In this document: positions 16,538 through 29,701 of the stretch, one piece after another
How the letters are laid out: every line of letters begins with the position of its first letter
How positions within the stretch are numbered: position 1 is the stretch's first letter
Origin: an uncultured Burkholderiales bacterium
Lineage (GTDB): Bacteria; Pseudomonadota; Gammaproteobacteria; Burkholderiales; Burkholderiaceae_C
Length of the DNA stretch: 64,000 bases
Reading direction: 5' to 3'
Assembly: GCA_945952065.1 (NCBI GenBank)
Contig: CAMFGY010000012.1
Span: 1 to 64,000 of the forward strand
Notes under the pieces: generated by a model
The model's input: only the letters and a program-made list of their open reading frames with translations
Told to the model about the DNA's origin: nothing
Database searches by the model: none
Made by a program: the position numbers and the translations under genes

Positions 16538-16991
16538 TTGATTTCGGGCTGCCGCGCTCAGCTGGCCCGGCCCGTTGACGGGTGATTGGTGCTCAGCCGA
16601 GTTCGCAGCGAAGCGAATCAAGCGCTGACTTGGCGGCACCTGTTGGATCCCAGAACGCGCGGCGCGCGAATTGAGCTTGCCGCCGCTGACTCGCGCAGTG
16701 CGCCGCGAGGGGAGTTGGCTCGCCCATGCCGACCCGAGCACCCTGAGCCCGGGATTGGGTCGGGTCGCCGGAGCGCGAAGCGCCGTTCTTTCAGCGCTTG
16801 GCCGGATCGACGCCACTCCCGCCGTGCCATCCCCCTCCCGCCTTGAACTTTCCCTGAAAGTGCCGGTGCTTTCTCAAGCTCTGGTTTCAGACCCCTCTGC
16901 AAGTCCTTATTTTTGAACGATTTTTGCTTTTGAAAAATCTGAGAAGTTCGCCCTAAGTGCTTGATTTGAAAGAGAAATTCGACGATTTACC
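16538..16991. other. Long leader/intergenic region before the dcw cluster
   Basis: Around 450 bp without a convincing gene. The first 350 bp are G+C-rich; the last 90 bp turn strikingly AT-rich and include a GATTTTT / AAAAATC inverted repeat (16919-16939). The change of composition fits a promoter region for mraZ. I tested it by eye for RNase P RNA and tRNA features and saw none. Confidence 0.45.
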
Positions 16992-17017
16992 TTGACCCGC
17001 CCGCGTTCGGGTATTAA
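16992..17017 (+). promoter_or_regulatory. Candidate mraZ promoter
   Basis: TTGACC (16992-16997) and TATTAA (17012-17017) resemble -35 and -10 hexamers but with only 14 bp between them, which is short. It sits directly ahead of the MraZ operator repeats, as expected of the first dcw promoter. Confidence 0.35.
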
Positions 17018-17018
17018 A

Positions 17019-17053
17019 GTGTCGAAAAGTGCAATTTGGTGGGTCGCCGTGGC
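17019..17053 (+). promoter_or_regulatory. MraZ operator: GTG repeats at 10-bp intervals
   Basis: GTGTC (17019), GTGCA (17029), GTGGG (17039) and GTGGC (17049) follow each other at exactly 10 bp. MraZ is known to bind tandem TGGG/GTGGG-like boxes separated by 5 bp directly before its own gene. The two boxes nearest the gene fit best. Autoregulation of the cluster is inferred. Confidence 0.6.
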
Positions 17054-17060
17054 GAATTTT

Positions 17061-17489
17061 GTGTTTCAGGGGGCTTCAGCCTTGGCAATGGATGCCAAGG
17101 GGCGTTTGGCCGTCCCGACACGCCACCGCGAGGTCTTGCAGGCGCTGTGTGCCGGCCAGCTGACCATCACCAAACACCCGGAAGGCTGCTTGATGGTCTT
17201 CCCGCGTCCGGCGTGGGAAGGCTTTCGCGACCGCATCGCCGCGCTGCCCATGTCGGCAGCGGGTTGGAAGCGGGTCTTTCTGGGCAATGCCATGGATGTG
17301 GAGATCGACGGCGCCGCGCGTGTGTTGATCTCGCCCGAGTTGCGCGCCAGCGCCGGGCTACAAAAAGACGTGATGCTGCTCGGCATGGGCAGCCACTTTG
17401 AGTTGTGGGATGCGGCTGCCTACGCCGCGCATGAAGCCCAAGTCATGGCCTCCGACATGCCGGAAGCCCTCAAGGACTTCAGCTTCTGA
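17061..17489 (+). CDS. mraZ: Transcriptional regulator MraZ
   Basis: MraZ is a DNA-binding regulator of the dcw cluster built of two AbrB-like SpoVT domains. The 142-residue product shows the first-domain motif [15 protein letters not shown] and the second-domain [18 protein letters not shown]. The GTG at 17061 ([14 protein letters not shown]) gives the family length and N-terminus; the frame is open further upstream but that part overlaps the operator repeats. The stop overlaps the rsmH start by one base (TGATG), so the two are translationally linked. Confidence 0.92.
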
Positions 17490-18499
17490 TGACACACGAC
17501 CCCACTCCATCCGAGGGCGCGACGCCGCTGTTCTCGCACACCACCGTCTTGCTGCACGAGACCGTGGAGGCGGTGCTGAGCTCGCCCGAGGGCATCTATG
17601 TGGACGGCACTTTCGGCCGCGGCGGGCATTCGCGGCTCTTGCTGTCCAAGCTGGGCGCGCAAGGGCGGCTGATCGCGATTGACCGTGACTTGGAGGCCAT
17701 TGCCGCCGCCACCAGCGGCGAGTCGCGTATTGAGGATCCGCGCTTTGCCATTTGCCACTCGCCGTTTGCCGAGATGCAGGCGCAGTTGGCGGGCTTGGGC
17801 ATTGAGCAAGTGCAGGGCGTGATGCTGGACCTGGGTGTGTCCAGCCCGCAAATTGACAACCCCGAGCGTGGTTTCAGCTTCCGATTCAACGGGCCGCTGG
17901 ACATGCGCATGGACACCACGCGCGGCGAGAGTGCTGCTGACTTTTTGGCACGCGCCGATGAGCGCCAGATTGCGGAAGTGATACGCAACTATGGAGAAGA
18001 ACGGTTTGCTGGGCAGATTGCAAAGGCGCTTGTGGCTCGCCGCACAGACGGCCAGCCCGTGCGAACAACCGATGAGCTGTCCGAAATCGTGGCTCGTGCG
18101 GTCAAGACTCGCGAACCGGGTCAAAACCCCGCCACGCGTACCTTTCAAGCTCTTCGGATTCACGTCAACGGCGAACTCCAAGAGCTGGAACAAGGGTTGA
18201 ACGCGGCGCTGCATCTGCTGGCGCCCGGTGGCCGCATGGCCATCATTTCCTTCCACTCACTGGAAGACCGCATCGTCAAAAACTTCATCGGCGCACACAG
18301 CAAGCAGGTGGTGGACCGCCGGGCCTTGTTTGCCGAGCCGAAGCCTCTGGCGCTGCAGGCCATTGCTCGCATCATGCCCAGCGAGGCGGAAGTGGCGGCC
18401 AATCCGCGTGCGCGTTCGGCGGTGCTGCGGGTGGCGCAGCGCACCGAAGCACCGCTGCCGGAAGTCCATGTGAAGAAGCGCCATCGGCGCGCAGAGTGA
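17489..18499 (+). CDS. rsmH: 16S rRNA (cytosine(1402)-N(4))-methyltransferase RsmH
   Basis: RsmH methylates N4 of C1402 in the ribosomal P site using S-adenosylmethionine. The 336-residue product begins [13 protein letters not shown], has the SAM motif [12 protein letters not shown], then [19 protein letters not shown] and the late [13 protein letters not shown] motif, all diagnostic. Second gene of the dcw cluster, overlapping mraZ by one base and 24 bp before ftsL. Length is normal for the family. Confidence 0.96.
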
Positions 18500-18523
18500 T
18501 TGTTGTTGAGCGAGTAAGTTCAG

Positions 18524-18850
18524 ATGTTCGGGCGCCTCAATCTCTTGCTGATTATAGCCGTGCTGGCCAGTGGCCTGGTGCTGGTGCGCAGCGCCTATGA
18601 GGCGCGCCGCCTCTTCACGGCTCTGGATCGGGCGCAGGCCGAGGGGCGTCGCCTCGAAGCCGACAACCAGCGCCTGCAGGCCGAGCGCCATGCGCAGGCC
18701 ACCAATCTGCGGGTGGAGCAAGTGGCGCGTGAGCGTTTGCAGATGCGCGCCATCACCCCAGCCGTAACCCAAAGCGCCGAGGATCATGGCCCGGCGGCGA
18801 AGTCCAAGAGTGGCCCGGCAGTGGCAGCCACCGCCGGAGGCACGCAATGA
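18524..18850 (+). CDS. ftsL: Cell division protein FtsL
   Basis: FtsL is a small bitopic protein that, with FtsB and FtsQ, activates the septal synthase FtsWI. The 108-residue product has a short cytoplasmic start, one membrane helix (about 5-22) and a coiled coil (about 25-70, rich in A/E/R/L heptads with ALDRAQAEGRRLEADNQRL-like spacing). The C-terminal tail is Ala/Ser/Lys-rich and low-complexity. Identification rests on topology and its place between rsmH and ftsI. It overlaps ftsI by four bases. Confidence 0.93.
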   Translation: MFGRLNLLLIIAVLASGLVLVRSAYEARRLFTALDRAQAEGRRLEADNQRLQAERHAQATNLRVEQVARERLQMRAITPAVTQSAEDHGPAAKSKSGPAVAATAGGTQ

Positions 18851-20709
18851 GTTGGCTGAGCCGTTTGCGCAAGCCCAGCACGGCGGGCGCGACTCAAGTC
18901 AAGCGGTCCAAGCGACCGCTGGCCGGCGCCGGGCGCAGCCCGACGGCGCGCAGCGTGAGCTATTCCAGCAGCCCCTTGCTGGCGTCTAAAACGCCGCCTT
19001 GGCGTTCGCGTTTTTTGGTGGCGCTGGTGGGCTTGGCCTTTGCGGGTTTGCTGGGGCGCGCGCTCTACATCCAGGTGATTGGCACGCGCTTTTATCAAAA
19101 ACAGGGCGAGGCGCGCTTTGTGCATCAGGTGGAGTTGCCGGCCAGCCGGGGGCGCATCAATGACCGCAGCGGTCAGGTGCTGGCCGCCAGCGTCGCCGTG
19201 CCTTCGTTCTGGGGCATTCCCAAAGAAATGGACACCGACCCAGCCAAGCGCCAAGCGCTGGCCAAGATCTTGGGTTGGTCGCAGGCCGAGATGGAGCGCA
19301 AGCTCGATCCGAACAGCCGCTTCGTCTGGCTGCAACGTCAGGCCGATGAGCATGTGGCCGCGCAGATCAAGGAGCTGGGCCTGAAGGGCGTGTTCCAAGA
19401 CCGCGAATACAAGCGCAAATATCCCGAAGGCGAGGCGGCCGCCCATGTGGTGGGCTTCACCAATGTGGAAGAGCGCGGCCAAGAAGGCATCGAGCTGGCC
19501 TTCCAAAAAGAGCTGCAAGGGCGCGATGGCAGCCGCTCGGTGGTGCGCGACCGCCTGGGCCGCGTGGTGGAAGACATTGGCGAGCGTGTGCCGGCTGCCA
19601 ATGGCCGCGACATTGATTTGTCCATCGATTCCAAAGTGCAGTTCTTTGCCTACCAGCGCATTCGCGACGCGGTGGCCGAGCACAAGGCCAAGGCCGGCAG
19701 CGTGGTGGTGTTGGATGTGAAGACCGGCGAGGTGCTGGCCTTGGCCAACTACCCGAGCTACGACCCCGGCCAACGCAAGAATTTGAGCGGCGCGCAACTG
19801 CGCAACCGCGCACTGACCGACATCTTCGAGCCCGGCTCCACGATGAAGCCTTTTGTGGCTGCATTGGCCATGGAGACCGGCCGCGTCACGCCCGACACGC
19901 CGATTCAAACAGCGCCCGGCAGCATCGTCATCACCGGCTCCAAGATCACCGATGCCCACCCGCATGGCGTGTTGACGGTGGCCGAGGTGATTCAAAAGTC
20001 CAGCAATGTGGGCACCGTGAAGATGGCCCTGAGCATGCAGGCGCGCGAGCTGCATGAGATGTACACCGCCATCGGCCTGGGGCAGCGGCCACAAATCGAC
20101 TTCCCTGGCGCCATCACCGGCAAGCTGCGTCCCTACAAGACCTGGCGTCCGGTGGAGCAAGCGACCATGAGCTTCGGCTATGGCCTGTCGGCCTCGCTGC
20201 TGCAATTGGCGCGCGCCTATACCGTGTTTGCGCGCGACGGCGAGGTCATCCCCATCACCATGATGCGCCAAGACGCCAATGCCCGACCCGCCGGCATCAA
20301 GGTGTTCTCGCCCAAGACGGCGCATGAGGTGCGCAAGATGTTGCAAATGGCTGCCGGCCCCGGCGGCACGGCGCCCATGGCCCAGGTCAGCGGCTACAGC
20401 GTCGGCGGCAAATCGGGCACGGCCCACAAGCAAGAAGGCAAGGGCTACGCCGGCAACAAATACCGTTCATGGTTTGTGGGGCTGGCGCCCGTCAGCAATC
20501 CGCGGGTGATTGTGGCGGTGATGGTGGACGAGCCCAGCAATGGCGTTTACTTCGGTGGCGCCGTGGCCGGCCCGGTGTTCAGCCAGGTGGTGTCGCAAAG
20601 CCTGCGCTTGCTGAATGTGCCCACCGATCTGGAGGTCAAACCGCAGATCGTGGCCAGCCAGAACAACAAGGGCAAGCCACAAGCGCAAGCCGTGGAAGAG
20701 AGCTTCTGA
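18847..20709 (+). CDS. ftsI: Septal peptidoglycan transpeptidase FtsI (PBP3), first copy
   Basis: FtsI cross-links septal peptidoglycan with FtsW in the divisome. The 620-residue protein has a ~55-residue basic cytoplasmic tail, one membrane helix (about 58-75, FLVALVGLAFAGLLGRALY), the non-catalytic pedestal with ASRGRINDRSG, and the transpeptidase domain. Catalytic motifs are Ser331-T-M-Lys334, S-S-N at 385-387 and K-S-G-T at 522-525. A C-terminal tail of about 30 residues is Gln/Lys-rich. Only two bases separate its stop from a second, complete ftsI gene. Confidence 0.96.
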   Translation: MSWLSRLRKPSTAGATQVKRSKRPLAGAGRSPTARSVSYSSSPLLASKTPPWRSRFLVALVGLAFAGLLGRALYIQVIGTRFYQKQGEARFVHQVELPASRGRINDRSGQVLAASVAVPSFWGIPKEMDTDPAKRQALAKILGWSQAEMERKLDPNSRFVWLQRQADEHVAAQIKELGLKGVFQDREYKRKYPEGEAAAHVVGFTNVEERGQEGIELAFQKELQGRDGSRSVVRDRLGRVVEDIGERVPAANGRDIDLSIDSKVQFFAYQRIRDAVAEHKAKAGSVVVLDVKTGEVLALANYPSYDPGQRKNLSGAQLRNRALTDIFEPGSTMKPFVAALAMETGRVTPDTPIQTAPGSIVITGSKITDAHPHGVLTVAEVIQKSSNVGTVKMALSMQARELHEMYTAIGLGQRPQIDFPGAITGKLRPYKTWRPVEQATMSFGYGLSASLLQLARAYTVFARDGEVIPITMMRQDANARPAGIKVFSPKTAHEVRKMLQMAAGPGGTAPMAQVSGYSVGGKSGTAHKQEGKGYAGNKYRSWFVGLAPVSNPRVIVAVMVDEPSNGVYFGGAVAGPVFSQVVSQSLRLLNVPTDLEVKPQIVASQNNKGKPQAQAVEESF

Positions 20710-20711
20710 CC

Positions 20712-22490
20712 ATGGCCATGAAGCGCTTTCTACTCAAGCAGCAGCCGGAGCGGCTCAGTCACGCGCAAAGCCCATTGCTGGCCACGCGCACGCCGGTCTG
20801 GCGCTCGCGTTTGCTGCTGGTCTTGGTGGGCACCGGCCTGGCGGGCTTGTTCGGGCGCGCGCTTTATGTGCAGGTGATTGGCAGTGACTTTTTTCAGAGC
20901 CAAGGCGATGCACGCTTTGTGCACAAGCTGGAGCTGCCGGCCAGCCGTGGCCGCATCCAAGACCGCAGCGGTCAGGTCTTGGCCAGCAGTGTGGCCGTGC
21001 CTTCGTTCTGGGCGGTGCCAACCGAGTTGCTGGCCTTGCCGGCCGATCAATTCAATGCGCTGGCCAAGGCCTTGGGCCTGAGCGCGGCCCAGCTCAAAGA
21101 AAAGCTCGACCCGAACAGCCGCTTTGTCTGGCTGCACCGGCAAGCGGATGCCCGCATGGCCGCCGAAATTCGCGCCCTGCAACTCAAGAACGTTTACCAA
21201 GACCGCGAATACCGCCGCAGCTACCCGGAGGGCGAAGCCTCGGCCCATGTGGTGGGCTTCACCAACAGCGAGTCGCGCGGCCAGGAGGGCATTGAGCTGG
21301 CCTTCCAGAAAAGCTTGCAAGGGCAAGATGGGTCGCGCTTTGTCATGCGCGACCGATTGGGGCGCGTCGTGGAGGCGCGGGGTGAGACTCAGGCCGCTGT
21401 GGATGGCCAGGACCTGGCGCTGAGCATTGACAGCAAGACCCAGTACTTCGCCTACCAAGCGATTCGCGATGCCGTGGCCGCCAACCAGGCCAAGGCGGGC
21501 AGCGTGGTGGTGCTGGATGCGCGCAGCGGCGAGATTTTGGCCCTGGCCAACTTCCCCAGCTACAAGCCTGACGAGCGCAAAAAGCTCAGCGGTGAGCAAC
21601 TGCGCAACCGCGCGTTGACCGATGTGTTCGAGCCCGGCTCGACCATGAAGCCCTTCATCGCCGCGCAGGCGCTGGAAACCGGCCGCGTCACGCCCGATAC
21701 CGTCATTCAAACCGCGCCGGGGCACATCACCATCACCGGCGCCACCATCAGCGATGCGCATCCCAGCGATGCACTGACCGTGGCGCAGGTGATTCAAAAG
21801 TCCAGCAATGTGGGCACCGTCAAGATGGCGATGCAGATGCCGGCCCAAGAGATGCACCAGCTCTACACGGCCATCGGCATGGGCCAGCGCCCGCAGATCC
21901 CCTTCCCGGGTGCGGTGACCGGCAGCTTGCGCCCCTACAAGAACTGGCGCCCGATCGAGCAGGCCACCATGAGCTATGGCTACGGCCTGTCGGCCTCGCT
22001 GTTGCAGCTGGCGCGCGCCTACACCGTGTTTGCGCACGATGGCGAACTGCTGCCGCTGAGCCTGACCAAGCGTGCCGAAGGCGAGCGGGTGCAGGGCCAG
22101 CGCGTCTTCTCGGCCAAGACCGCGCAGCAGGTGCGGCAGATGCTGCAGACCGTGACGGCCAAAGGCGGCACCGCCCCGATGGCGCAGGCCGAGGGCTATA
22201 GCGTGGGCGGTAAGTCCGGCACCGCCTACAAGCAAGAAGGCCGCGGCTATGCCCGCAACAAATACCGCGCCTGGTTTGTGGGCCTGGCACCGATCAGCCA
22301 GCCGCGCATCGTCGTGGCGGTGATGGTGGACGAGCCCACCCAGCAATTTCACGATGGCGGCAAGGTGGCCGGCCCGGTCTTCAGCAAGGTGGTCTCCAAG
22401 AGCCTGCAGCTGATGGGGGTTGCGGCGGATTTGGCCGTTAGCCCGCAAATCCTGGCCCAGCAAGCCGCCAGTGGCAAGGAAGTTCTCTGA
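20712..22490 (+). CDS. Second FtsI/PBP3-type transpeptidase in tandem
   Basis: The 592-residue product is a full paralogue of its upstream neighbour: short basic tail (~33 residues), membrane helix (about 34-52), ASRGRIQDRSG pedestal motif, and intact catalytic motifs Ser310-T-M-Lys313, S-S-N at 364-366 and K-S-G-T at 501-504. Distances between catalytic motifs (54 and 137 residues) are identical in both copies. Differences are spread throughout, strongest in the cytoplasmic tail, the region after ASSVAVPSFW and the C-terminus, so this is an old duplication and not an assembly repeat. It starts 2 bp after ftsI and overlaps murE by one base. Role, whether redundant or specialised, is unknown. 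Confidence 0.93.
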   Translation: MAMKRFLLKQQPERLSHAQSPLLATRTPVWRSRLLLVLVGTGLAGLFGRALYVQVIGSDFFQSQGDARFVHKLELPASRGRIQDRSGQVLASSVAVPSFWAVPTELLALPADQFNALAKALGLSAAQLKEKLDPNSRFVWLHRQADARMAAEIRALQLKNVYQDREYRRSYPEGEASAHVVGFTNSESRGQEGIELAFQKSLQGQDGSRFVMRDRLGRVVEARGETQAAVDGQDLALSIDSKTQYFAYQAIRDAVAANQAKAGSVVVLDARSGEILALANFPSYKPDERKKLSGEQLRNRALTDVFEPGSTMKPFIAAQALETGRVTPDTVIQTAPGHITITGATISDAHPSDALTVAQVIQKSSNVGTVKMAMQMPAQEMHQLYTAIGMGQRPQIPFPGAVTGSLRPYKNWRPIEQATMSYGYGLSASLLQLARAYTVFAHDGELLPLSLTKRAEGERVQGQRVFSAKTAQQVRQMLQTVTAKGGTAPMAQAEGYSVGGKSGTAYKQEGRGYARNKYRAWFVGLAPISQPRIVVAVMVDEPTQQFHDGGKVAGPVFSKVVSKSLQLMGVAADLAVSPQILAQQAASGKEVL

Positions 22491-24001
22491 TGTTGACCCG
22501 TTTGAAATCCCCCGAAGCCTGCGCACGCTGGCTGCAAGAATGGACCACCGGCGTGCTGCGCACCGACAGCCGCGAGGTGCAGCCCGGTGATGCCTTCATC
22601 GCCTGGCCGGGCTATGCCCGCGATGGCCGCGAGTTTGTCGCGCAAGCCTTGGCCGCTGGCGCAGCCACTTGCTTGGTGGAAGACGAGGGCGTGGAGGCCT
22701 ACGGCTTTGTCGACGCCCGGGTGGCCTCGCTGCCCGGCCTGAAGGCCAAGACCGGCTTGATCGCCGCCGCCTACTACGGCCAGCCGTCCAAGGTGCTGCC
22801 CATCATTGCCAGCACCGGCACCAATGGCAAAACCTCCAGCGCCTGGTGGTGCGCACAAGCGCTGTCGCTGCTGGGGCAGCGCTGCGGCGTGGTGGGCACA
22901 TTGGGCGTGGGCGAGCCGCCGCTGCCGGCGCGCCCCGGCCATGCGGCAAGCCCTGCCAAGATCGACTACACCGGGCTGACCACGCCCGACCCGGTGCTGC
23001 TGCAGGCCAATTTCCGCCGCATGCTGGACGAGGGTTACGGCGCTTGCGCGATCGAAGCTTCCTCCATCGGCCTGAAGGAATTCCGCCTCAGCGGCAGCGA
23101 GATCCAGGTCGCGCTGTTCACCAATTTCACGCAAGACCATCTCGACTACCACGGCACGATGGAGGCCTATTGGGCCGCCAAATGCGAGCTGTTTGAGCAG
23201 CCGGGTTTGCGCGCTGCGGTGCTCAATATCGACGACCCCAAGGGCGCCGAGCTGGCGCAAACGCTGGCCCCGCGACTGGAGGTTTGGACCTACTCCTTGC
23301 AAGGCCCGGCGCGCCTGCAAGCCAGCGAGCTGCACTACCGCGCCGGTGGCTTGGCCTTCACCTTGCGTGAAGGCGAGCAGTCGGTGTTGCTGGAAACGGG
23401 CTTGATCGGCGAGTACAACGTCGCCAATTTGCTGGGGGTGATCGGCGGCTTGCGGGCCCTGGGCCATGGGCTGAAGGAAATTGCCGAAGTGATTGGCCGT
23501 GTGACGCCGGTGCCGGGCCGCATGCAGCGCGTTGGCAATGGCCTGGAACTGCCGCAGCTGGTGGTGGACTATGCCCACACGCCCGATGCGCTGGACAAGG
23601 CCTTGACGGCCTTGAAGCCGCTGGCCGAAGCGCGCGGCGGGCGGCTGCTGTGCGTGTTTGGCTGCGGTGGCAACCGCGACCGGGCCAAGCGCCCGGCCAT
23701 GGGCGCGATTGCGGCCCGTTTGGCGGATCGCGTCATCATCACCAGCGACAACCCGCGCCACGAAGTGCCGCAGCAAATCCTGGCCGATATCGAAGCCGGC
23801 CTGCCCGCTGAAGCGCCGCGTTTGGTGGAGGTGGACCGCCGCTTGGCGATTGCCCAAGCCGTGCGGGAAGCGGGGCCGCGCGATGTGATTCTGGTGGCGG
23901 GCAAAGGCCATGAGGACTACCAAGAAGTGGCCGGTGTGCGCCAACCCTTCTCCGATGTGGACGAAGCCCGCGCCGCCCTGATCGCGAGGGCCGGCCTGTG
24001 A
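22490..24001 (+). CDS. murE: UDP-MurNAc-tripeptide synthetase MurE
   Basis: MurE adds the third stem amino acid, normally meso-diaminopimelate in Gram-negatives, to UDP-MurNAc-L-Ala-D-Glu in the cytoplasm. The 503-residue protein shows TDSREVQPGDAFIAWPG, the P-loop STGTNGKTS, the YTGLTTPDP segment, VDYAHTPDAL and GNRDRAKRPAMG, and the DNPRHE motif whose D-N-P-R selects diaminopimelate. Start ATG at 22490 overlaps the preceding transpeptidase stop by one base; its end overlaps murF by four bases. Confidence 0.96.
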   Translation: MLTRLKSPEACARWLQEWTTGVLRTDSREVQPGDAFIAWPGYARDGREFVAQALAAGAATCLVEDEGVEAYGFVDARVASLPGLKAKTGLIAAAYYGQPSKVLPIIASTGTNGKTSSAWWCAQALSLLGQRCGVVGTLGVGEPPLPARPGHAASPAKIDYTGLTTPDPVLLQANFRRMLDEGYGACAIEASSIGLKEFRLSGSEIQVALFTNFTQDHLDYHGTMEAYWAAKCELFEQPGLRAAVLNIDDPKGAELAQTLAPRLEVWTYSLQGPARLQASELHYRAGGLAFTLREGEQSVLLETGLIGEYNVANLLGVIGGLRALGHGLKEIAEVIGRVTPVPGRMQRVGNGLELPQLVVDYAHTPDALDKALTALKPLAEARGGRLLCVFGCGGNRDRAKRPAMGAIAARLADRVIITSDNPRHEVPQQILADIEAGLPAEAPRLVEVDRRLAIAQAVREAGPRDVILVAGKGHEDYQEVAGVRQPFSDVDEARAALIARAGL

Positions 24002-26608: not shown

Positions 26609-26618
26609 TGGCGGCGTG

Positions 26619-28430
26619 ATGACTGAGATGTTGAGCTTGCCTGAAACTGATGCTGAAAGCGCGCAGCCCGCGGTGGAGTCGCGGCGCGGCGTCGGCCTTG
26701 GCTTTGCCGGTCGACAAGTGCTGGTGCTGGGCTTGGGCGACTCGGGCTTGGCCATGGCCGCCTGGGTGGCGCGTTATGGTGCCCAGGTCGCGGTTTGGGA
26801 TTCCCGCGAACAGCCGCCTCAACTGGCGCGCTTGCAGGCAGAGTGGCCGCAAGCCCGGTTCATCAGTGGCGACTTGCCCGAGTCGGTGATGAACGGCGTG
26901 CACCTGGTTCTGAAGAGCCCGGGGCTGTCGCCTCTGGATGCGCGCTTGTTGCCGGTGTTGAATCTGGCGCGGCAAACCGGTGTGCCGGTGCAAGGCGAGC
27001 TCGATCTGTTTGCGCAGGCGCTGGCCGAATTGAAGCAAGAGCGTGGCTACGCGCCTGCCGTGCTGGCCATCACCGGCACCAATGGCAAAACCACCACCAC
27101 CTGCATGACCGCCTTGTTGGTGGAGCGGGCCGGCAAGCGGGTGGTGATGGCCGGCAACATCGGCCCCAGCATGCTCACCACCTTGAGTCAGGCGCTGGAT
27201 CAAGAGCCTGCACCAGCGCCCGTGGACGCCGAGCCCCGAGCCGCAGCGCAAGAGGGCGAAGCAGCGCCAGTGGCTGAGGCCGATGCCGCGCCTGCGCTTG
27301 AAGCCCGCGCAGACGAAGCGGGGACGGAGACGACCCTGGACAAGGTCGATGCCCTGCTGGAAGAAGCCCCGCTGCCCATCAAACCTCCGCCGCCGAAGGC
27401 GCCGGTGTTTGAGTTCTTGCCCGAGGTCTGGGTGCTGGAGTTGTCGAGCTTTCAGCTGGACGGCGTGAAAGGCTTTGAGCCCACCGCCGCAGCGGTGTTG
27501 AACATCACCCAAGACCATCTCGATTGGCATGGCGATATGGCCGCCTATGTGCGCGCCAAGGCGCAGATTTTTGGCGAGCAGGCGCTGATGGTCATCAACC
27601 GTGACGACGCGGTGGTGGAGGGCATGGTGCCCGCCGCGGTGCTGGTCAAGCAGGGCCGTGGCCGCGCTGCCAAGTCGGTGAGCCGGCGCGTTTGCCGGTT
27701 CGGTCTGGATGCCCCGAACCATCCGGGTGATTTTGGTCTGGTGCAAGAAGCCGGTATGGCCTGGCTGGTGCGTGCCCGCGAGCAGGACGAAACCCTCAAG
27801 CGCAAAAAGGGCGAAGAGGAGGAGATCAGCCTGCAACGCCTGATGCCGGCCGATGCTCTGCGGGTGCGAGGCCGCCATAACGCCGCCAATGCGCTGGCTG
27901 CCTTGGCCCTGGCCAGCGCGGCCGGCTGCGCCCTGGCGCCGATGTTGCATGGGCTGCGCGAATACCGCGGCGAACCCCACCGCGTTGAGCATGTGATGAG
28001 CATCAACGGTGTGGATTTCGTGGACGACTCCAAAGGCACCAATGTCGGCGCCACCGTGGCCGCCATCAGCGGCCTGGGGGCTGACCGCGCGCCGGCCAAG
28101 CTGGTGTTGATTTTGGGCGGCGATGGCAAGGGCCAGGACTTCAGCCCCTTGGCGGACGGTGTGGCGCGTCACGCGCGCGCTGTGGCCCTGATCGGCCGCG
28201 ACGGGCGGCAAATTGCGGCAGCCCTGGCCGATTGCGGCGTGCCCCTGCAAGCGCATGAAACCCTGGAAGCTGCTACTGCCTGGTGCCAGGCCCAGGCGCA
28301 AAGCGGCGACACGGTCTTGTTGAGCCCGGCTTGCGCCAGCCTCGATATGTTCCGCAATTACGCCCATCGCGCCGAAGTGTTTGTGAACGCCGTGCAGCAA
28401 CTGGCGCAAGACGGAGGGCTGGCGACATGA
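26619..28430 (+). CDS. murD: UDP-MurNAc-L-Ala-D-Glu synthetase MurD with internal insertion
   Basis: MurD adds D-glutamate to UDP-MurNAc-L-Ala. Family features are [18 protein letters not shown]-loop [31 protein letters not shown] and [12 protein letters not shown]. At 603 residues it is about 100 longer than usual. Most of the excess is a low-complexity Ala/Pro/Glu/Asp-rich block (about residues 192-262) between [15 protein letters not shown] and [10 protein letters not shown], in the central ATPase domain. A smaller charged insertion (about 388-410, containing KRKKGEEEE) lies before [13 protein letters not shown]. Catalytic motifs are intact, so activity is expected. Start ATG at 26619; GTG at 26616 is possible. 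Overlaps ftsW by four bases. Confidence 0.93.
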
Positions 28431-29701
28431 GCGCAAACAGCGATGCGTTGTCGGCCTTCAAAGGGCTGGGCGCTCGCCTGGGCGCTTGGTTCAGCCGTGG
28501 CAGGAGTGAGTCGGCGGATGTGCCGGTGCGCGACTGGGTGTCGCAGTCGGCGGGTCAGCCCACCCGCATCCAAGGCTTTGACCAAACCCTGGTCTGGGTG
28601 GTGTTGGTCTTGATGGCGCTGGGCTTGCTGATGGTCTATTCGGCCTCCATCGCGATGCCGGACAACCCACGCTTTTCCAAGTACATGCCGACCCATTTTC
28701 TAAGTCGCCACATTGTGGCGATTGTGTTCGGCTTGGTGGCTGGGCTTTTGACCGTGCAAGTGCCGGTGGCCACCTGGGAGCGGGTGGCCCCTTGGGTGTT
28801 TGTTGTGGCCTTGGTGCTGTTGATTGCGGTGTTGATCCCGGGTGTGGGCAAGGTGGTGTATGGCGCGCGGCGTTGGTTGCCGCTGGGGGTGATGAACTTT
28901 CAGCCCTCTGAGCTGGCCAAGATGGGCATTGCCATGTATGCCGCCAGCTATATGGTGCGCAAGATGGATGTGAAGGAGAACTTCTTCCAAGCTGTCTGGC
29001 CCATGGCTGTGTCTTTGGCCATCATCGGCGTGCTCTTGTTGGCCGAGCCCGATATGGGCGCCTTCATGGTGATTGCGGCCATCGCCATGGGCATTTTGTT
29101 TTTGGGCGGCGTCAATGGCCGCATGTTCTTCTTGATCGTGGCGGTGCTGGTGGGCGCTTTTGTGCTGATGATCACCTTCAGCGAATTCCGGCGCGAGCGC
29201 ATTTTTGCCTACCTCAACCCCTGGGATGAGAAGTATGCGCAAGGCAAGGCTTATCAGCTGACGCACTCGCTGATCGCCCTGGGTCGAGGCGAGTGGTTCG
29301 GCCAAGGCCTGGGCTCCAGTGTGGAAAAACTGCATTACCTACCCGAGGCGCACACCGACTTCTTGCTGGCCGTGATTGGCGAGGAACTCGGCTTTGTGGG
29401 CGTGGCCCTGGTGATCATCGGCTTCTTCTGGCTGTCGCGCCGACTCTTCCATATCGGCCGGCAGGCCGTGGCGCTGGACCGTGTGTTCGCGGGCTTGTAC
29501 GCCCAAGGCATCGGCATCTGGATGGGCGGCCAAGCCTTCATCAATATGGGTGTGAACCTGGGTGCGCTGCCCACCAAGGGCCTGACCCTGCCTTTGATGA
29601 GCTTCGGCGGCTCCGCCATCCTGATGAACTGCGTCGCCCTCGCCATCGTCCTGCGCATTGATATTGAGAACAGACAGCTCATGCGCGGAGGCCGCGCATG
29701 A
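28427..29701 (+). CDS. ftsW: Septal peptidoglycan glycosyltransferase FtsW
   Basis: FtsW is the SEDS-family polymerase that works with FtsI to build septal glycan from lipid II. The 424-residue product has a cytoplasmic N-tail of about 60 residues, then about ten helices. Diagnostic segments are the MVYSASIA start of helix 1, [19 protein letters not shown], the [11 protein letters not shown] motif, [20 protein letters not shown] and [13 protein letters not shown]. The ATG at 28427 overlaps the murD stop (ATGA). Overlaps murG by four bases. Confidence 0.95.

Follow-up and report, generated by a model that had tools for sequence, protein, structure and literature searches.

A tandem pair of diverged ftsI genes in a betaproteobacterial dcw operon: a probable second septal transpeptidase beside one FtsW

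Introduction

FtsI is usually regarded as the unique essential transpeptidase of cell division. The window analysed here, a stretch of 64,000 nucleotides from an uncultured, Paucibacter-like Burkholderiales bacterium (assembly GCA_945952065.1, contig CAMFGY010000012.1), carries two ftsI genes, ftsI-A and ftsI-B, in a standard division and cell wall (dcw) operon. The two are arranged head to tail, with ftsL before and murE after them, and the question raised by this locus is what the second gene is for. We argue that ftsI-B (B) probably encodes a functional second septal transpeptidase that stems from one old tandem duplication of ftsI. The case for its function is built on intact motifs, purifying selection, a single origin, a fixed position and the presence of one FtsW. 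Throughout, G000 denotes this genome and the other G numbers denote sampled relatives.

Results

The proteins encoded by ftsI-A (A) and ftsI-B are 68% identical and both genes are intact. The catalytic Ser, Ser and Lys residues are S331, S385 and K522 in A and S310, S364 and K501 in B, and the motifs are spaced by 54 and 137 residues in both; the first-pass annotation, which had described two complete, diverged ftsI genes in tandem within dcw, was correct in its coordinates, intactness, motifs and spacings. All three motifs (SxxK, SxN and KTG) are intact in 8/8 A and 8/8 B copies from the tandem pairs found, with an SVMK variant in three of the B copies. Both proteins scored over the Pfam cut-offs for the transpeptidase domain (PF00905; 259.5 bits for A and 269.2 bits for B) and for the pedestal, or PBP_dimer, domain (PF03717; 73.5 and 69.9 bits, respectively). 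The NCBIfam FtsI model, with a cut-off of 737 bits, is non-discriminating here, as the resident A (433 bits) fails it together with B (431 bits). On contig C5 a PBP2-like protein is encoded that shares 31% identity with residues 203–580 of A; with 68% identity between B and A, B is therefore nearer to FtsI than to PBP2/MrdA. The membrane helix of each copy was taken as the segment aligned with the helix of Escherichia coli FtsI, no predictor being used. An AlphaFold model of B computed from 12 rows reached a mean pLDDT (predicted local distance difference test) of 52.7, which was too poor for use.

The genome holds six genes with a transpeptidase domain and only two of the shape, elongation, division and sporulation (SEDS) family, i.e., the ftsW of this operon and a rodA-like gene on contig C5 beside the gene for the PBP2-like protein. 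Since there are only two SEDS genes and one of them adjoins the PBP2-like gene, the two FtsI proteins appear to share one FtsW. This gene content, along with the conservation of both copies under purifying selection, agrees with the earlier proposal that one operon would supply two septal-type transpeptidases to one FtsW.

The position of ftsI-B is constant, between ftsI-A and murE and tightly packed behind ftsI-A; in this genome the gap from the stop of ftsI-A to the start of ftsI-B is 2 nt (TGACCATG). A scan of positions 16700–23200 returned two promoter-like sites, where 0.7 were expected by chance; the sole site on the + strand was at 16992, and none was located between ftsI-A and ftsI-B in the scanned region. 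Placement in a single operon speaks against the two genes being controlled separately at the transcriptional level. A coding tail like that of ftsI-A, usually AVEESF, terminates the single ftsI of relatives and directly precedes murE in 6/6 single-copy genomes read, and part of the conservation of this tail may therefore be translational.

Tandem ftsI pairs were found in eight genomes overall, representing three genera, namely the home genus and those of G024 and G127. Within the home genus, 6 of the 18 genomes have the pair (G000, G009, G003, G006, G011 and G012) and the remaining 12 have one dcw FtsI each; in one of the latter, G015, the contig begins inside ftsI and murE follows directly. 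G024 is the only sampled member of its genus and its genome is one 5.32-Mb contig; G221, the one other sampled member of the genus of G127, has a single FtsI. From the larger family, 299 genomes were evenly drawn and up to four candidates were scored per genome (10 genomes gave no match); five contained two FtsI at the threshold used, three in tandem (G000, G024 and G127) and two, G004 and G230, not. The class-wide sample consisted of 276 evenly drawn genomes scored in the same manner (18 without a match), of which six had two or more FtsI, and no tandem pair besides that of our own genome was found among them. In the six single-copy genomes read, no remnant or decay of ftsI-B was seen, and murE lies within a few bases of ftsI. 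As to nomenclature, Paucibacter is now placed in Roseateles, Betaproteobacteria (NCBI taxonomy).

The protein tree of FtsI, computed without the aberrant G004 paralogue (G004b), placed the eight B copies of the three genera in one clade with an ultrafast bootstrap (UFBoot) value of 100, and the A copies fell among the single-copy FtsI. Independent duplications in each genus were also considered, and every tree of this kind that was tested was rejected by the approximately unbiased (AU) test at p<0.001: the p values were 2.5e-6 for the G127 pair, 6.7e-5 for the G127 pair together with its congener, 1.4e-5 for the G024 pair and 3.3e-4 for a clade uniting the six pairs of the home genus with three single-copy members. 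Long-branch attraction was addressed through shared residues and these constraint tests; B has long branches, however, and the point at which its clade attaches to the tree is unreliable. Five residues are common to at least 7/8 B copies and occur in 0/39 other FtsI, and no such residue emerged when eight single-copy FtsI not forming a clade were drawn at random 200 times. The B clade was also recovered from segments 41–230 (support 92) and 391–600 (support 100), and not from segment 231–390. Identity among B copies decreases from 91–96% between close species to 64–70% between genera, and that among A copies from 92–97% to 80–84%, a pattern that fits an old origin, largely vertical inheritance and faster change in B. 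Overall, these comparisons indicate one old ftsI duplication that was followed by repeated loss. Five second FtsI copies from genus g122, described below, were left out of the AU tests, of the alignment of contact positions and of the regional divergence ratios.

Pairwise ratios of nonsynonymous to synonymous substitution rates (dN/dS) were calculated using our own script for the Nei–Gojobori method (NG86). In four close pairs the ratio for B was 0.08–0.12, and in three of these it was not above that for A (A 0.03 and B 0.12 for G000–G009; 0.08 and 0.08 for G006–G012; 0.13 and 0.09 for G006–G011; 0.12 and 0.10 for G012–G011). Within genomes, dS between A and B is confounded by a high GC content at third codon positions (0.81–0.95). 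Full-length B frames of 578–602 aa are present in 8/8 genomes, and 190 of the 234 positions that are invariant in A and single-copy FtsI (34 sequences) are invariant across all B copies as well. The ratio of B to A divergence was highest in the pre-membrane segment (6.2), followed by the anchor (4.1), the C-terminus (3.0) and the neck (2.9); it was 1.3–2.0 around the three motifs and 1.2–2.9 in the other regions. B is kept by purifying selection and evolves faster than A, unevenly along its length.

The near-identical blocks around the catalytic motifs had been tentatively attributed by the first-pass annotation to either gene conversion or selection, and the 34-nt block it cited, at 19985–20018 in ftsI-A and 21787–21820 in ftsI-B, is an exact match. 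Conversion was evaluated from the lengths of exact matches, null distributions obtained by codon resampling (match lengths below 20 were scored 0, so that null means are understated), the ranks of sequence windows and trees of segments, and it found little support for this pair: with close relatives set aside, only 1 of 29 DNA windows had A as the A-type sequence closest to B, and exact A–B matches of at least 34 nt occurred in 20/56 between-genome comparisons, close relatives included, with B of this genome sharing at least 34 nt with four of the seven other A copies. We read the blocks mainly as the product of purifying selection and codon bias. Two observations count against this reading, i.e., A of this genome shares no more than 29 nt with any of the seven other B copies, and a length of 34 nt was attained in only 2/200 trials of codon resampling; one short exchanged block is therefore possible in this pair. 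In the other genomes, the resident A was nearest in 1 (G009), 5 (G003), 7 (G006), 2 (G011), 7 (G012), 3 (G024) and 8 (G127) of the 29 windows (close relatives again set aside), ranks that are inflated by within-genome codon similarity, and a 64-nt A–B match in G024 was attained in 0/200 codon resamplings. On these grounds local conversion is possible in several other pairs, G127, G006 and G012 having the most windows that favour their own A.

Using E. coli FtsI as a ruler, we compared the residues for which PMC10390529 gives contacts in the E. coli model. The residues facing FtsW or FtsL in that model are largely kept in B (G57, R60 and R213 in 8/8 copies; R216 and E219 in 7/8). At two positions described there as FtsL contacts, Y168 and R559, B has changed: the former is Lys in 28/34 A and single-copy sequences and in 0/8 B, and at the latter Arg is replaced by Gln in 6/8 B. 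In the active site, H547 and D548 of B align with Y532 and F533 of Pseudomonas aeruginosa FtsI, according to a printed alignment. The F533-equivalent is Asp in 7/8 B and Ala in 1/8, and aromatic in 39/39 other FtsI; the Y532-equivalent is His in 8/8 B, as it also is in 4 of the 26 single-copy FtsI. An overlapping set of 59 distinct FtsI (from 59 of 63 loci, the other four giving no pattern) had an aromatic residue at the F533 position in 58 cases, the exception being G024-B. Loss of this aromatic residue makes a changed transpeptidase pocket in B likely. A search of FtsW, FtsL, RsmH, MurE and MraY for covariation with the presence of B returned one MraY site only, which was unconvincing.

FtsI-like genes other than the tandem pairs were also encountered. 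Contig C8 of G004 (L135:5600-7384, − strand) encodes a full-length FtsI-like protein of 594 aa, 40% identical to ftsI-A, near prfA- and prmC-like genes; it occurs in 1/18 genus genomes, and Pfam matches both domains. By eye, all three motifs are lost (QPGGLVQ in place of EPGSTMK, ACD in place of SSN, and no KTG), making it a candidate FtsI pseudoenzyme. Genus g122, which belongs to the same family, has a second FtsI match in 17/41 genomes (e.g., L128:5578-7329), with an internal TGA in one and another in two pieces; in the one context read by eye, the match is located next to ExbB- and TonB-like genes. These second copies differ from ftsI-B in that they are never adjacent to the first, and the five examined fall into a clade with the FtsI from the dcw cluster of g122, with normal motifs and a normal aromatic wall. 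In another family of the class, G596 has three FtsI-like genes, none adjacent, with 34–38% identity to ftsI-B. G439 and G545 have two each on separate contigs, and in three of these four matches one TAA, which may be the terminal stop, is reported. The features of the locus are listed in Table 1; beyond these, MurD (26616–28430) is unusually long at 604 aa, and by eye contains an insertion of about 100 residues rich in Ala, Pro and Glu.

Table 1. Coordinates of the ftsI pair and associated features, numbered along the window
Feature	Position	Strand	Remarks
ftsL	18524..18850	+	overlaps ftsI-A start (ATGA); open 108-aa frame
ftsI-A	18847..20709	+	620 aa; clusters with single FtsI of relatives
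ftsI-A SxxK motif	19837..19848	+	STMK, residues 331-334
ftsI-A SxN motif	19999..20007	+	SSN, residues 385-387
ftsI-A KTG motif	20410..20421	+	KSGT, residues 522-525
ftsI-A Y568-F569, aromatic-wall pair	20548..20553	+	equivalent to P. aeruginosa Y532-F533
GGAAGAGAG, last codons of ftsI-A	20694..20702	+	candidate ribosome-binding site for ftsI-B (putative assignment)
ftsI-B	20712..22490	+	592 aa, second FtsI; TGA stop overlaps murE ATG
ftsI-B SxxK motif	21639..21650	+	STMK, residues 310-313
ftsI-B SxN motif	21801..21809	+	SSN, residues 364-366
ftsI-B KTG motif	22212..22223	+	KSGT, residues 501-504
ftsI-B H547-D548, replaces aromatic-wall pair	22350..22355	+	
murE	22490..24001	+	next operon gene
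ftsW	28427..29701	+	

Discussion

The most likely role of B, judging from sequence comparison, is that of a co-translated second septal transpeptidase specialised in its pocket and its regulatory contacts. B would be produced from the same mRNA as A, would dock on the FtsW used by A via the conserved membrane, pivot and lid contacts, and would compete or alternate with A in the divisome. The difference between the two would reside in the protein and not in expression, that is, in the FtsL-facing positions, the pre-membrane segment, the C-terminus and a pocket without the aromatic wall. Such a pocket should shift substrate handling and beta-lactam affinity, which would render division robust where A works poorly. 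A more far-reaching proposal, which we put forward only tentatively and consider rather unlikely as a whole, is that the cell maintains two kinds of septal synthase at once, composed of one FtsW and two co-translated FtsI of different pocket chemistry and regulation, with a constitutive, pocket-remodelled B sustaining division when A is blocked or substrate-mismatched.

Several results weigh against a functional B of single origin. In wider pairs dN/dS was higher for B (0.21–0.31) than for A (0.12–0.18), and with the excess in G000–G009 noted above, some of the change in B may represent relaxed constraint. In a tree built from six neighbouring proteins, one gain requires seven losses, the unordered minimum being five changes, so B can be lost; backbone support on that tree is weak, and an exchange through recombination at this same position is possible. 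The positions of the A copies put an additional strain on the AU constraint at genus level. The protein tree of segment 231–390 pairs G127-B with G024-A (support 58); monophyly of B is not rejected for this segment (AU 0.33), and the DNA tree recovers the B clade with a support of 85. Finally, no residue in FtsW or FtsL was found to track the presence of B.

Among the other explanations, B might chiefly be a low-affinity, beta-lactam-tolerant spare through which septation continues when A is acylated, a possibility that we regard as real but improbable. It is indirectly favoured by the non-aromatic residue at the F533 position in every B copy, and the Salmonella paralogue PBP3SAL binds some beta-lactams poorly according to PMC5826704; the same pocket change could, however, serve another substrate. 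That B is a condition-specific septal enzyme, active for instance at low pH in the manner of Salmonella PBP3SAL or Klebsiella PBP3PARA, seems unlikely. The degree of identity to the resident FtsI is similar (63% in Salmonella and 68% here) and the motifs are intact, but unlike the acid-inducible Klebsiella paralogue, ftsI-B belongs to the dcw operon and no promoter-like site of its own was found in the scanned region; the activity of B could still be pH-gated despite this layout. Plain redundancy or gene dosage, with interchangeable FtsI proteins, would account for two intact copies that are co-transcribed by layout; yet dosage favours similar copies, and the old divergence, the B-specific fixed residues and the region-specific change make this explanation quite improbable.

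It is more doubtful still that B no longer takes part in septation and works with FtsW at some other cell-wall site or stage, by analogy with SpoVD in the spore cortex. The changed FtsL-facing positions and the second class B penicillin-binding protein (PBP) in the dcw cluster of sporulating Bacilli (PMC10693644) would be in keeping with such a role, but there is no extra SEDS gene and most FtsW-contact positions are kept. An assembly artefact or a decaying duplicate is largely refuted and has next to no probability left. The absence of B from 12/18 genus genomes is in its favour; on the other side are the 68% identity, the eight genomes that include a single-contig one, the full-length frames and the low dN/dS in close pairs. 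The collapsed or false duplication contemplated by the first-pass annotation is excluded by a protein divergence of 32% and by the tandem pairs of other genomes, among them the single contig of G024; its other concern, a second copy absent from all close relatives with signs of decay, did not materialise, given the presence of B in 6/18 genus genomes and the lack of visible decay in those read.

How, then, does the preferred reading, a second septal transpeptidase, compare with known systems? The gene for PBP3SAL is not known to lie in dcw, whereas ftsI-B sits in the operon, 2 nt behind ftsI-A, and a separate locus with its own induction is not what we found. The two systems are alike in having a second intact FtsI beside a conserved resident one. 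According to PMC5736910 and PMC5826704, PBP3SAL is an FtsI paralogue with all three motifs and 63% identity to the resident PBP3, which alone can build the septum at acid pH, binds some beta-lactams poorly and is described as absent from non-pathogens. PMC13251458 presents Klebsiella PBP3PARA (ftsI2) as an acid-inducible FtsI paralogue with FtsW as its proposed partner, and states that class B PBP paralogues have so far been described only in pathogens. PBP3PARA and B are thus both FtsI paralogues proposed for FtsW, acid induction being the Klebsiella feature. For the Bacilli, the gene order is ftsL-pbpB-spoVD-murE, and the likeness lies in a second class B PBP adjoining in dcw; SpoVD differs in being sporulation-specific with its own SEDS partner, SpoVE, whereas only one FtsW is present here. 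The adjacency of FtsI (PbpB) and SpoVD, two class B PBPs, in dcw of sporulating Bacilli is described in PMC10693644.

FtsI paralogues are therefore known already, as are neighbouring genes for two class B PBPs within dcw; what is new is an FtsI pair packed in dcw of Betaproteobacteria with one FtsW, a combination of known features. No published account of such a pair, or of Paucibacter and ftsI together, was found among the matches listed for the literature searched, subscription papers being outside its scope. To our knowledge, the Paucibacter group contains no pathogens. Should the tentative proposal of two septal synthase kinds be true, it would represent a two-channel divisome built into bacteria other than the pathogens from which FtsI paralogues were described. 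The pair offers a natural system for asking how two transpeptidases share a single SEDS enzyme, which surfaces of FtsI set the regulation of the divisome, and whether altered drug pockets emerge in division enzymes that are not under clinical selection.

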